NCBI GenBank assembly: GCA_030600605.1 | Contig: JAUVLT010000011.1 | Location: 1-38,253, forward strand | Length of the DNA: 38,253 bases | Direction of reading: 5' to 3' | Source: Mycoplasmatota bacterium | Lineage (GTDB): Bacteria; Bacillota_I; Bacilli_A; Izemoplasmatales; Izemoplasmataceae | Part shown: piece after piece, positions 32,682 to 35,822 of the stretch | Position numbering within the stretch: the stretch's first letter is position 1 | Layout of the letters: every line of letters starts with the position of its first letter | Notes under the pieces: model-generated | What the model was told of the DNA's origin: nothing | The model's input: only the letters and a program-made list of their open reading frames with translations | Databases searched by the model: none | Made by a program: the position numbers and the translations under genes

Positions 32682-33806
32682 TTATTCTGTTCTTACCGGA
32701 AGTATTAATTGAAGCATATTTTCATCATAATCACCTTTAATTATGAATGGTCTTATCTCACCGGTAAAATTAATTGTAACTTCACTTGAATTGAAGATTT
32801 TTAAGGCATCTAAAATATATTTAGAACTAAACGCAATTTTGATAGGAGCACCAATTATTTCATCAACTGGATACACCTCTTCTAAAACTTTACCTATTTC
32901 AGGACTATTAGATGTTATTTCAACAATATTGTCTTGTCTTAATTGTAATTTAACAATTGCATTATTTCCATCTCTACTTGAAAGTAAACTAGCTCTTTCA
33001 ATCGCTGTAAATAGGTTTTCTTTGTTAAATTTAATAATGATTGGAAATTCAGTTGGAATTAATTTTGATGTTTCTGGATAATTTCCTTCTAACAAACGTG
33101 ATTGAAATAATAAACTTCTATATTTAAATAAAATTTTTGAATTATCAAAATGTAATTCAACCATTTCGTTATTATTTTCAAGTACTTTTATTAATTCATC
33201 TAAACTACGGCCTGGAATTATAATGTTTAATGGTTCATAAACTTCATTTAATTCAATTTGTTTTTGACTTAATCGATAACTATCTGTAGCTATTGCTATT
33301 AATTTATTTCCATCAATTTTAAAATTAACACCTGTTAAAATTGGTCTGTTTTCAATAGATGAAGTAGCAAAAGCTGTTTGTCTAATAATTGTTTTCAAAG
33401 TTCTTACATTGATTTTTATAGATTTAATTTTTTCACTAAATTCTAATTCAGGATAATCGTCTATGTCCATCATATTTAATGTGATATCTGATCTGTCAGC
33501 TTCTATTCTTATCATGTTATCTACGACAGATGATATAACAACCTTTAATCCATCTAGTTTTCTAATGATTTCAATAAAATATTTACCAGGTATTAAAACG
33601 GATCCTTGTTTTTTAATTGCTAAGCTTGGATCTTTAATTACTAATTTAATAGCAATATCTGAATTACTAGTAGTAATAATTAAATGATCTTCAAGAACAT
33701 CTAATTTAATACCTTGTAAAGCAGGATTAGGTGTTTTGTTTGATAATGCTTTTTGAGCAATTATCAAATTGTTAAGTAATATGTCTTTATTAATTTGAAA
33801 ATTCAT
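32682..33806 (-). CDS. dnaN: DNA polymerase III beta sliding clamp
   Basis: Ring-shaped processivity clamp; 374 aa with three repeated domains. Recognisable segments are the N-terminal MNFQINKDILLNNLIIAQKA, ATDSYRLSQ in the second domain, and the C-terminal LILPVRTE. SD AGAGGTGAT precedes the ATG. Downstream of dnaA with an intergenic region that carries DnaA boxes and an extended -10 promoter, so it can be transcribed alone or with dnaA. Confidence 0.97.
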   Translation of the reverse strand: MNFQINKDILLNNLIIAQKALSNKTPNPALQGIKLDVLEDHLIITTSNSDIAIKLVIKDPSLAIKKQGSVLIPGKYFIEIIRKLDGLKVVISSVVDNMIRIEADRSDITLNMMDIDDYPELEFSEKIKSIKINVRTLKTIIRQTAFATSSIENRPILTGVNFKIDGNKLIAIATDSYRLSQKQIELNEVYEPLNIIIPGRSLDELIKVLENNNEMVELHFDNSKILFKYRSLLFQSRLLEGNYPETSKLIPTEFPIIIKFNKENLFTAIERASLLSSRDGNNAIVKLQLRQDNIVEITSNSPEIGKVLEEVYPVDEIIGAPIKIAFSSKYILDALKIFNSSEVTINFTGEIRPFIIKGDYDENMLQLILPVRTE

Positions 33807-33858
33807 CCAATCACCTCTTATTAATTATTGTTTTTATTTATTATTGTTATTAGTGTTG
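33807..33858 (-). other. Candidate DNA unwinding element with DnaA-trio-like repeats
   Basis: Immediately after two tandem DnaA boxes the minus strand reads CAACA then CTA ATA ACA ATA ATA, followed by more A/T-rich sequence to the dnaN SD. Spacing and strand match the DnaA-trio arrangement known from Bacillus, though only the first triplet is an exact trio. Confidence 0.4.
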
Positions 33859-33875
33859 TGTGGAAATGTGGAAAC
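33859..33875 (-). promoter_or_regulatory. Two tandem DnaA boxes between dnaA and dnaN
   Basis: Minus strand GTTTCCACA (33867-33875) and ATTTCCACA (33859-33867) share one base. Each matches TTWTNCACA except at the first base. They lie in the dnaN leader, downstream of its -10 box. Confidence 0.6.
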
Positions 33876-33893
33876 AATCAAAAATCTATATAT

Positions 33894-33899
33894 ATTATA
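33894..33899 (-). promoter_or_regulatory. Extended -10 promoter of dnaN
   Basis: Minus strand TGGTATAAT, upstream of the two DnaA boxes. The -35 is not recognisable. Transcripts would start near 33887 and run across the boxes. Confidence 0.5.
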
Positions 33900-33929
33900 C
33901 CATATAATTAGGTTTTAAGTGTATTTATT

Positions 33930-35303
33930 TTAGTTTTCTCCACATTTTATACGTAATTTCTCCACATCGTTTTTAACATCTTTATTCATTTCTATTTCGT
34001 TAGTTATTTTTTCAACAGAATGCATTACGGTTGAATGATCTCTATTGTTAAAATATGTTCCAATTTTTTTATAAGGTATGTCGTACATTGTCTTAATTAA
34101 ATACATAGAAATTTGTCTTGGAAAGACATATTTAAATGTTCTTTTTCTAGATATTAAATCAATAGTTGTAATACGGTAATAATCACTAACTATACTTAAA
34201 ATATTATTAATTTTATTTTGATTTAAAAAATTACTATTATTACGTGGTTTAACAAGGTTTTCTAAGGCTAATTCAGCGTTTTTAACGTTAAAATCTAAAT
34301 TAAAAGCAGTACAATAAAACAATACTCTTTTTAATGCTCCTTCTAATTCTCTAACATTATTGTCAAAAACACTAGCAATATATTCAAGTACATCGTCTGG
34401 AATTAATGATGAATCAGACGTTTCAGCTGTTAATTTTTTCTTAAGAATTTTTATTCTTAAATCTAGAGCAGGTCTACTAATATCAACGGTAACTCCCCAT
34501 TCAAATCTAGAAGTTAATCTAGACATTATGTCTTTAAGCTCACTAGCGCTTCGATCACTAGTTATTACAATTTGTTTTTGAGTCCCATGTAGTGTTTCAA
34601 AAAGTTTAAAAAATTCCTTTTGAGATTTATCTTTCTTTGCTAAAAATTGAATATCATCTACTAATAATACATCTACATCACGATATTTTTGATTAAATTC
34701 TTCAAACTTTCTTTTACTAGCAGATCTAACATATTCTTCTACAAATTGATCCGTTTTTACATATAATACCTTTTTATTCATGTCACCTTCTAAAATATAA
34801 TTACCAACACACTGCATAAGATGGGTTTTTCCTAAACCAACATCACCAAAAATAAAAAGTGGATTAGCAACAATACCTGGTTGATCAGCAATCTTAATAG
34901 CGCTGGTATAAGCCAATCTATTTGAATTACCTACTACAAAACTATCAAAACTATAACTAGCATTTAAGTTACCTTGTAAATATTTATTATTAGAGTTGGA
35001 ATTAGCGGAAGTTAAAGTAAATTCTTTTGTATCTGCTAATTCGTCACTAGCTTGATCTTCAGTCATTATTCTGAATTTGTGAATCTCATCAAGTTTTAAT
35101 CTTAAATATCTATTTAATTTGTTCAAATATAATATTTCTATACGTTTTTTTATAAAATCATTTGGAGCTACAATATATATATAATTGTTAACGACCTTAA
35201 AAACAGTATTCACAGGTTCAAAAATATCTGCGAATACTACTTCTTCAAGGTCGTTTTCTAATTCTAACTTAATTTCATCCCATATTTTACTGTATTTTTC
35301 CAC
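33930..35303 (-). CDS. dnaA: Chromosomal replication initiator DnaA
   Basis: AAA+ initiator that binds DnaA boxes and melts the origin. Domain I is about residues 1-85 and a short Asn/Ser-rich domain II about 95-115. Domain III has Walker A GDVGLGKTH and Walker B VLLVDDIQFL. Domain IV has the helix-turn-helix signature FNNRDHSTVMHS. The longest frame begins with GTG at 35312, which lies in the SD GAGGTGA. The GTG at 35303, 5 nt after it, gives 457 aa starting MEKYSKIWDEIK and is preferred. First gene leftwards of the origin; DnaA boxes upstream suggest autoregulation. Confidence 0.97.
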   Translation of the reverse strand: MEKYSKIWDEIKLELENDLEEVVFADIFEPVNTVFKVVNNYIYIVAPNDFIKKRIEILYLNKLNRYLRLKLDEIHKFRIMTEDQASDELADTKEFTLTSANSNSNNKYLQGNLNASYSFDSFVVGNSNRLAYTSAIKIADQPGIVANPLFIFGDVGLGKTHLMQCVGNYILEGDMNKKVLYVKTDQFVEEYVRSASKRKFEEFNQKYRDVDVLLVDDIQFLAKKDKSQKEFFKLFETLHGTQKQIVITSDRSASELKDIMSRLTSRFEWGVTVDISRPALDLRIKILKKKLTAETSDSSLIPDDVLEYIASVFDNNVRELEGALKRVLFYCTAFNLDFNVKNAELALENLVKPRNNSNFLNQNKINNILSIVSDYYRITTIDLISRKRTFKYVFPRQISMYLIKTMYDIPYKKIGTYFNNRDHSTVMHSVEKITNEIEMNKDVKNDVEKLRIKCGEN

Positions 35304-35331
35304 GATGTTCACCTCATATTATCTCATATAA

Positions 35332-35340
35332 AATATAACA
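35332..35340 (-). promoter_or_regulatory. Extended -10 promoter of dnaA
   Basis: Minus strand TGTTATATT about 29 nt before the GTG start, -35 weak. A DnaA box (35382-35390) lies about 40 bp upstream, a plausible autoregulatory site. Confidence 0.4.
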
Positions 35341-35381
35341 TAGATTTTGTATTAAATAAATTAAAAGTTTCCCACAAAAAA

Positions 35382-35390
35382 TGTGGAAAA
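35382..35390 (-). promoter_or_regulatory. DnaA box TTTTCCACA
   Basis: Full match to TTWTNCACA on the minus strand, upstream of the dnaA promoter. Confidence 0.7.
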
Positions 35391-35461
35391 ATAATTATAA
35401 CAAATGTTTTTCCACCTTCTTTCCAAATTGAGTAAGTGAGTTATATAGCCATTGTATACCT

Positions 35462-35470
35462 TTATACACT
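35462..35470 (+). promoter_or_regulatory. DnaA box TTATACACT
   Basis: Eight of nine bases match TTATNCACA; the last base differs. Confidence 0.5.
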
Positions 35471-35501
35471 TTTCCAATTGTTGTTAATAGACAATTTCCA
35501 C

Positions 35502-35510
35502 CTTTCCACA
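35502..35510 (+). promoter_or_regulatory. DnaA box CTTTCCACA
   Basis: Matches TTWTNCACA except the first base. A weaker partner, ATTTCCACC, lies directly before it at 35494-35502. Confidence 0.5.
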
Positions 35511-35550
35511 TTTCAGTGTGTCAAAAACACGAACTAAAGCCGTTTTTTAG

Positions 35551-35559
35551 TGTGGATAA
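35551..35559 (-). promoter_or_regulatory. Perfect DnaA box TTATCCACA
   Basis: The only exact consensus box in the region, bordering an AT-rich run that leads to the rpmH promoter. Confidence 0.8.
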
Positions 35560-35602
35560 CTTTTTAAATTTTGTATGAATAAATTTTTTTTAAAGATTAG
35601 TA

Positions 35603-35631
35603 TTGACACATTTTTTTATTGCATATATAAT
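35603..35631 (+). promoter_or_regulatory. Consensus promoter of rpmH
   Basis: Perfect TTGACA (35603-35608), 17-bp spacer, perfect TATAAT (35626-35631). The strongest-looking promoter in the window, as expected for a ribosomal protein gene. Confidence 0.9.
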
Positions 35632-35675
35632 TGTATAGCATGGTTTTTAACATATGAAGTAGGAGGTGTTGATGT

Positions 35676-35822
35676 ATGCCAAAAAGAACATACCAACCGA
35701 ACAAACGTAAAAGAGCGAAGACTCATGGGTTTATGGAAAGAATGAGTTCGCCAACTGGAAGAAGAGTTTTAGCTAGAAGAAGAGCTAAAGGACGTAAAAA
35801 ATTAACTGTATCAGATGAATAA
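35676..35822 (+). CDS. rpmH: 50S ribosomal protein L34
   Basis: 48-aa basic protein starting [19 protein letters not shown] and containing [20 protein letters not shown], the L34 signature. The length is slightly above the usual 44 because of an acidic tail ending SDE. AGGAGGTG lies 7 nt before the ATG. It is the first gene rightwards of the origin and is followed by rnpA after a long hairpin. Confidence 0.97.

Follow-up and report, generated by a model that had tools for sequence, protein, structure and literature searches.

A probable Bacillus-type unwinding module with variant DnaA-trios between dnaA and dnaN of an Izemoplasma relative

Introduction

On which side of dnaA does the chromosome of an Izemoplasma relative open, and which sequence would its DnaA read there? 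The question is raised by a stretch of 38,253 nucleotides (called the window here) from an Izemoplasma relative whose genome is a 1.51-Mb draft assembly. It carries rpmH, dnaA and dnaN in the arrangement usual for an origin, and an earlier note had proposed for it a bipartite origin with a DnaA-trio-like element resembling the basal unwinding module of Bacillus (BUS). Our literature search found no paper on the Izemoplasma replication origin and none that joins DnaA-trios with Acholeplasma; among the papers retrieved for DnaA-trios with Mollicutes, Spiroplasma and Mycoplasma, none by its title deals with trios in the present group, and the supplementary tables of PMC8287927 may list the group. 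For DnaA-trios together with Asn187, just PMC10721633 was found.

The locus and its relatives

dnaA lies on the minus strand at 33930-35312 with a GTG start (TIGR00362, 463.8 bits against a cut-off of 343.9), followed on the same strand by dnaN at 32682-33806 (TIGR00663, 306.5 bits, over the cut-off), and rpmH is found on the plus strand at 35676-35822. The closest named matches of DnaA belong to Mycoplasmatota, Tenericutes and Candidatus Izemoplasma assemblies (six loci, 80–90% identity), and the order rpmH(+) dnaA(-) dnaN(-) is identical in every relative of the order in which all three genes were found, a synteny that also supports the identification of dnaA. For comparison, 90 genomes of the order were searched, which gave a DnaA match in 81 and 78 readable dnaA-dnaN gaps (43 in family f1, 30 in f2 and 5 in f3); the gaps L056, L058 and L072 are anchored on wrong boxes and still stand inside the counts of 78.

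A tandem-box and triplet module downstream of dnaA

The dnaA-dnaN gap is 123 bp long and reads on the dnaA strand TATAAT, GTTTCCACATTTCCACA, CAACA, CTAATAACAATAATAA, AT-rich DNA, AGAGGTGAT and the ATG of dnaN. The TATAAT at 33894-33899 (minus strand) is the -10 element of a probable dnaN promoter (TATGGTATAAT) and AGAGGTGAT at 33810-33818 (minus strand) is the dnaN ribosome-binding site; both are formed by near-invariant columns, the former in the f1 and f2 alignments. Between them lie two minus-strand DnaA boxes, GTTTCCACA at 33867-33875 and ATTTCCACA at 33859-33867, each with two mismatches from TTATCCACA, offset by 8 bp and overlapping by one base. They are followed by the 5-nt spacer CAACA (33854-33858), which varies by about 1–2 nt among relatives, and by the triplet element CTA ATA ACA ATA ATA (33839-33853), which would present the variant DnaA-trios 3'-GAT TAT TGT TAT TAT-5' on the opposite strand. 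The tandem boxes are the sole CCACA-N3-CCACA pair on either strand of the window and the triplet element is its sole (YAA)5 run, with a probability of 0.004 for a run of five in the 34 nt after the boxes under dinucleotide shuffles. The earlier note had read this series of boxes, spacer and triplets from the sequence, and gene calls and box scan return the same coordinates for the gap and its boxes.

Set against the published BUS, in which a box has at most two mismatches (or a tandem at most two and four) and the trios start 0–16 bp from it, the window offers two boxes at two mismatches and a spacer of 5 nt. In the available text of PMC8287927 the search rule asks for three consecutive 3'-NAN-5' within 16 bp of the box. 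In the published register the window reads GAT, TAT, TGT, TAT, TAT, and three consecutive 3'-NAN-5' trios are absent, the longest run from either box being two, because the centre of the third trio is G; 25 of the 78 gaps of the order fail the rule as well. On the other hand, 3'-GAT-5', reported in that text as the most frequent trio of the survey, particularly beside the box (PMC8287927), is present in the proximal position as CTA at 33851-33853, and 40 of 65 gaps have a C directly ahead of the first YAA. The view that only CTA matches exactly undervalues the regularity: read as a YAA unit, the element TAA TAA CAA TAA TAA is exact five times over. The imperfection of the match is systematic in the clade and is accompanied by an altered DnaA pocket.

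Conservation of the triplet phase

Across the order, YAA runs of at least three units starting no more than 10 nt from the box end are present in 59/78 gaps compared to 2.1 expected from dinucleotide shuffles, runs of at least four in 46/78 (0.33 in shuffles) and runs of at least five in 18/78 (0.045 in shuffles), with the gaps that fall short kept in the denominator, three of them (L056, L058 and L072) failing through the wrong anchor; the 8-bp shift between tandem boxes was called in 64/78. Whole gaps were then aligned without any pattern filter and the fewest changes were counted on the DnaA tree. Over four triplets, the 30 gaps of f2 required 2, 3, 6 and 5 changes at Y, 0, 1, 2 and 3 at the first A and none at all at the second A, and those of f1 required 7, 2, 11 and 8 at Y, 2, 0, 6 and 5 at the first A and 1, 0, 1 and 0 at the second A. 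Unconstrained columns take about 7–15 changes in the f2 alignment, and many take at least 10 in the f1 and f2 gaps. Substitutions are mostly concentrated on one triplet position, Y, and the triplet phase is kept over the order apart from about a dozen f1 genomes with a 1-nt slip, an extra base after two or three triplets (e.g., TAATAACCAATAATAA). A loss of triplet phase among relatives, named in the earlier note as grounds for refutation, is thus not what the alignment shows. In L031, L034, L042, L046 and similar f1 loci the extra base splits the YAA run into two phases. Runs such as TAATAATAGTAATAA in L127, L132, L166 and L207 contain a TAG unit. L124 and L125 (f12, genomes of 0.75–0.88 Mb) have a dnaA-dnaN gap of just 37–49 bp with neither boxes nor triplets; there the module appears to have been lost, and the origin has perhaps moved.

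A DnaA box inside the dnaA 3' end

Two further boxes, both absent from the earlier note, reside within the 3' end of dnaA on the plus strand. The first, TTCTCCACA at 33936-33944, falls in the last codons (Lys-Cys-Gly-Glu) and is proposed as the distal box; the second copy of TTCTCCACA, with one mismatch, is located at 33958-33966. TGTGGA, a DnaA-box core, encodes the Cys-Gly of the tail Lys-Cys-Gly, and in f1 the Gly is GGA in 43/43 genomes and the Cys TGT in 42/42. This Gly is the only single-codon column among 106 conserved f1 dnaA columns with at least four synonymous codons, and the commonest codon of conserved Gly columns of f1 dnaA averages 47%; in f2 it is GGA in 94% of 31 sequences, a set that includes the truncated f1 locus L085. 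At 33958-33966 synonymous sites are unconstrained, with GTG as the Val codon in 79%. The comparison shows the putative distal box at 33936-33944 to be constrained at the DNA level.

The distance from the tail box to the -10 element is 45–48 bp in 40/41 f1 genomes and 57 in the remaining one; f2 genomes show 58 bp in 9/28 and 66–71 bp in 19/28. The interval that follows is some 11 bp shorter in a single f1 genome. These counts omit L052, L056 and L073 (no -10 match) and L024 (no tail box), and several f2 distances from -10 to trio (29–36) were left unused since they are anchored in the box itself. The steps 47 to 57–58 to 68–70, and one of -11, resemble helical turns, a resemblance drawn from few independent events and for which no significance is claimed. 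For the distal box of Bacillus subtilis, helical phasing was found by experiment, as stated in the accessible part of PMC6669920. The dnaA-embedded box would offer an evolutionary test of the looping model.

Boxes upstream of dnaA and a natural control

DnaA boxes also cluster upstream of dnaA, so that they occupy both sides of the gene as the earlier note had claimed; where it had counted five or more in 35382-35559, including a perfect one, six boxes were found at no more than two mismatches each, and the perfect box is that at 35551-35559 (minus strand). The dnaA-rpmH gap holds 8 boxes in 363 bp (22 per kb) compared to 4.9 per kb outside the origin, and at least three boxes with no more than one mismatch are present in 69/76 upstream regions (460 bp each, window included). 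This cluster includes a natural control at 35496-35510 (plus strand), a tandem pair that has the 8-bp offset of the downstream boxes, points the opposite way and is not followed by triplets. Upstream tandem pairs of this geometry occur in 23/76 genomes, 27 pairs in total; a YAA run of at least three follows none of the 27, whereas it follows 23 of 31 downstream pairs. Runs of at least four are found in 0/76 upstream regions, the longest being three units, in 7 regions. Near the dnaA start, the facing boxes TTTCCCACA and TTTTCCACA (35368-35390), with similar ones in related loci, possibly serve autoregulation.

The cumulative GC skew, a check put forward in the earlier note, has its minimum in the window at 35541. 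For the complete genome of the relative G080, of which 20 stretches of 20 kb were sampled, the minimum is at 363010 (dnaA at 361430-362806), and its skew is below zero from 1.36 Mb round to dnaA and above zero thence to about 1.24 Mb, with local exceptions at 282, 347 and 372–380 kb. The expected turn near dnaA is observed, and with box clusters flanking dnaA it agrees with a bipartite dnaA oriC; both minima fall in the dnaA-rpmH gap, where the skew cannot separate the two sides of dnaA because the coding strand also switches there.

The DnaA base-contact pocket

In B. subtilis DnaA, Asn187 (with Glu183) contacts the middle A of the trio, Arg202 and Glu228 the G, and Asn196 the third base, which Ile190 and Ile193 flank; alanine at 187, 190, 193, 202 or 228 leads to a severe growth defect and none of the pocket residues is universally conserved, according to the available text of PMC10721633. 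The available text of PMC8287927 adds that I190A abolishes strand separation in B. subtilis. The DnaA of the window, aligned to PDB 8btg with a gap-free pocket stretch, differs by Asn187Glu, Ile190Val, Ile193Ala and Arg202Asn, so that Glu228 alone of these five residues is identical; position 183 is Asp and position 196 Arg. The AAA+ residues Arg264, Glu228 and Lys222, which serve ATP use, the filament and phosphate contact, are retained. Among 84 aligned DnaA sequences of the order (three or four rows blank at each position), residue 187 is Glu in 77 and residue 228 Glu in 79, and at residue 190 there are 49 Val, 20 Ala and 12 Gly; the sister family has Ala or Gly there. Since I190A fails in B. 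subtilis while Ala and Gly are natural here, these residues suggest that the pocket may work differently in this order.

Comparison with known origins

The likeness to Bacillus that the earlier note had seen in order and strand is borne out, and the geometry agrees too: a putative distal box, tandem boxes 8 bp apart, a short spacer, triplets and AT-rich DNA. As far as the available texts describe the B. subtilis BUS (incC, DnaA-box 6/7), the window shares with it the position between dnaA and dnaN, tandem boxes aimed into the triplets, a short spacer, triplet periodicity on the same strand, a putative distal box upstream and a bipartite origin (PMC6669920, PMC8287927, PMC10721633). Unlike those descriptions, in which the trios are mostly 3'-GAT-5', the window trios after the first are 3'-TAT-5' or 3'-TGT-5', one trio has G at its centre, the base-contact residues of DnaA are replaced and one putative distal box sits in the last codons of dnaA. 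The accessible part of PMC6892953 presents a JCVI-syn3A oriC model that is similar in having one TTATCCACA and two weaker boxes by an AT-rich region ending at the dnaN ribosome-binding site, and that differs in treating the AT-rich DNA as 3-nt increments without a triplet code (PMC6892953).

Which element opens the origin

What the comparison establishes is the arrangement of the module with its strand and order, a constraint specific to the triplet phase, and a turn of the skew close to dnaA. A Bacillus-type BUS at this oriC is very likely in our judgment because the module is unique in the window, the YAA runs are conserved, their phase is constrained and the upstream pairs lack triplets. 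The constraint on the dnaA-tail box, the skew turn, the DnaD/DnaB-type proteins with two TnnT motifs opposite the trios and the retained AAA+ residues also speak for it. DnaA would bind the two tandem boxes, its oligomer would extend onto the strand opposite the dnaA-sense strand (3'-GAT TAT TGT TAT TAT-5') and the duplex would open towards dnaN, with extra DnaA supplied by the dnaA-tail box and the upstream cluster, probably via a loop. Against such a BUS count the failed three-NAN rule, the replacement of pocket residues essential in B. subtilis, the 1-nt slips of f1, and a skew minimum that lies in the dnaA-rpmH gap and not at the triplets, although the coding-strand switch would put it there anyway.

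The gap could also be no more than the dnaN promoter, leader and ribosome-binding site, the boxes being an autoregulatory operator and the triplets AT-rich leader. TATAAT and the AGGTG site are indeed among the most conserved columns, but a leader would not be expected to show, next to the boxes, a period-3 constraint that tolerates one transition, and the YAA run, unique in the window, follows boxes in divergent families, which makes this reading highly improbable. Opening on the dnaA-rpmH side, with the downstream module as an accessory, would explain why more and better boxes, the perfect one included, and the skew minimum are located there; it is extremely doubtful given that upstream regions hold no YAA run of four or more and upstream pairs none of three or more.

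The triplets might instead owe their conservation chiefly to the helicase loader, with a DnaD element on the dnaA-sense strand and DnaA reading the other strand loosely. The genome encodes PF07261 twice (frames of 402 and 219 aa), i.e., DnaD/DnaB-type loader proteins, and the larger frame (DnaB_2-type, G000:C68:3207-4327) adjoins a weak DnaA-family ATPase match, presumably the arrangement of a dnaB-dnaI loader pair. On the dnaA-sense strand the triplets of the window carry two TnnT motifs, and at least two within 24 nt are found in 61/78 gaps; two 5'-TnnT-3' are the minimum for B. subtilis DnaD in the available text of PMC10201434. The likeness to that DnaD recognition element lies in a T at each third base opposite the trios and in the encoded proteins, and the difference in that the window has just two TnnT, as its third trio carries C, and that a DnaD site here is predicted (PMC10201434). 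TnnT, however, frees both middle bases, yet those A positions are the most conserved, and loader recognition is compatible with trios and no substitute for them; we give the loader as main cause little credence. With PF07261 proteins present and two TnnT on the dnaA-sense strand, the triplets may serve both DnaA and DnaD.

A shift of register concerns how the triplets would be read: the unit would be 3'-RTT-5', the site-1 pocket, with its Glu228 retained, would take up the purine that may vary, and T would replace the middle A. The position that varies carries A or G (R), just like site 1 in classical 3'-GAT/AAT-5' trios, and Glu228 is kept in 79 of the 80 DnaA proteins with a letter at that position while Asn187 is lost; nevertheless, the C before the first YAA in 40/65 gaps produces a classical CTA (3'-GAT-5') proximal trio in the standard register, and the shift is an unlikely reading, if one with some weight.

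A possible second trio dialect

The Bacillus-type module, read in the standard register, raises the issue of whether DnaA and trios changed together, and 177 loci of the phylum were scored for dialect. The comparison of Glu187 with C in the YAA unit (G in the trio) drops 39 loci with no clear dialect, 16 YTA loci, L153 (wrong anchor) and one with no residue 187. C was found in 55/97 YAA loci with Glu187 compared to 0/23 others (Fisher 1e-7); independent pairs gave 3.9 same and 0 opposite (median p 0.125), and G+C content tracks C almost equally (4.1 and 0.3 pairs). In G+C classes that cover 95/97 Glu187 genomes, C was present in 5/19 Glu187 loci against 0/13 others (0.20–0.27), 12/23 against 0/8 (0.27–0.295) and 37/53 against 0/2 (0.295–0.5). 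That Glu187 permits C in the YAA unit is a lead, with descent and G+C as alternatives. As a switch between YTA (3'-RAT-5') and YAA, Asn187Glu was rejected: some Asn187 proteins go with YAA runs and some Glu187 proteins with YTA, and independent pairs gave 2.2 same and 0.7 opposite (median p 0.625). The tree holds about 10 changes of the YTA/YAA dialect, which does not track residue 187.

These patterns are suggestive of a coevolution of trios and DnaA pocket. We tentatively consider, as a conjecture more doubtful than probable, a second dialect in Izemoplasmatales, Acholeplasma-like and other relatives of the phylum, in which 3'-GAT-5' mostly comes first and 3'-T(A/G)T-5' comes after it, and which a rebuilt pocket would read; in that pocket Glu187 would tolerate the central G, a base that impairs B. 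subtilis at the trio centre. The BUS has been proposed as an ancestral opening mechanism, and its sequence rule and base-capture pocket are based on B. subtilis. The present lineage keeps the architecture while its trio centres are A or G and other residues, Ala or Gly at 190 among them, stand in the pocket. If the second dialect is true, the initiator and the origin would have altered their single-strand code in step with each other, and whether DnaA can rewrite such a code is made directly testable by this lineage.
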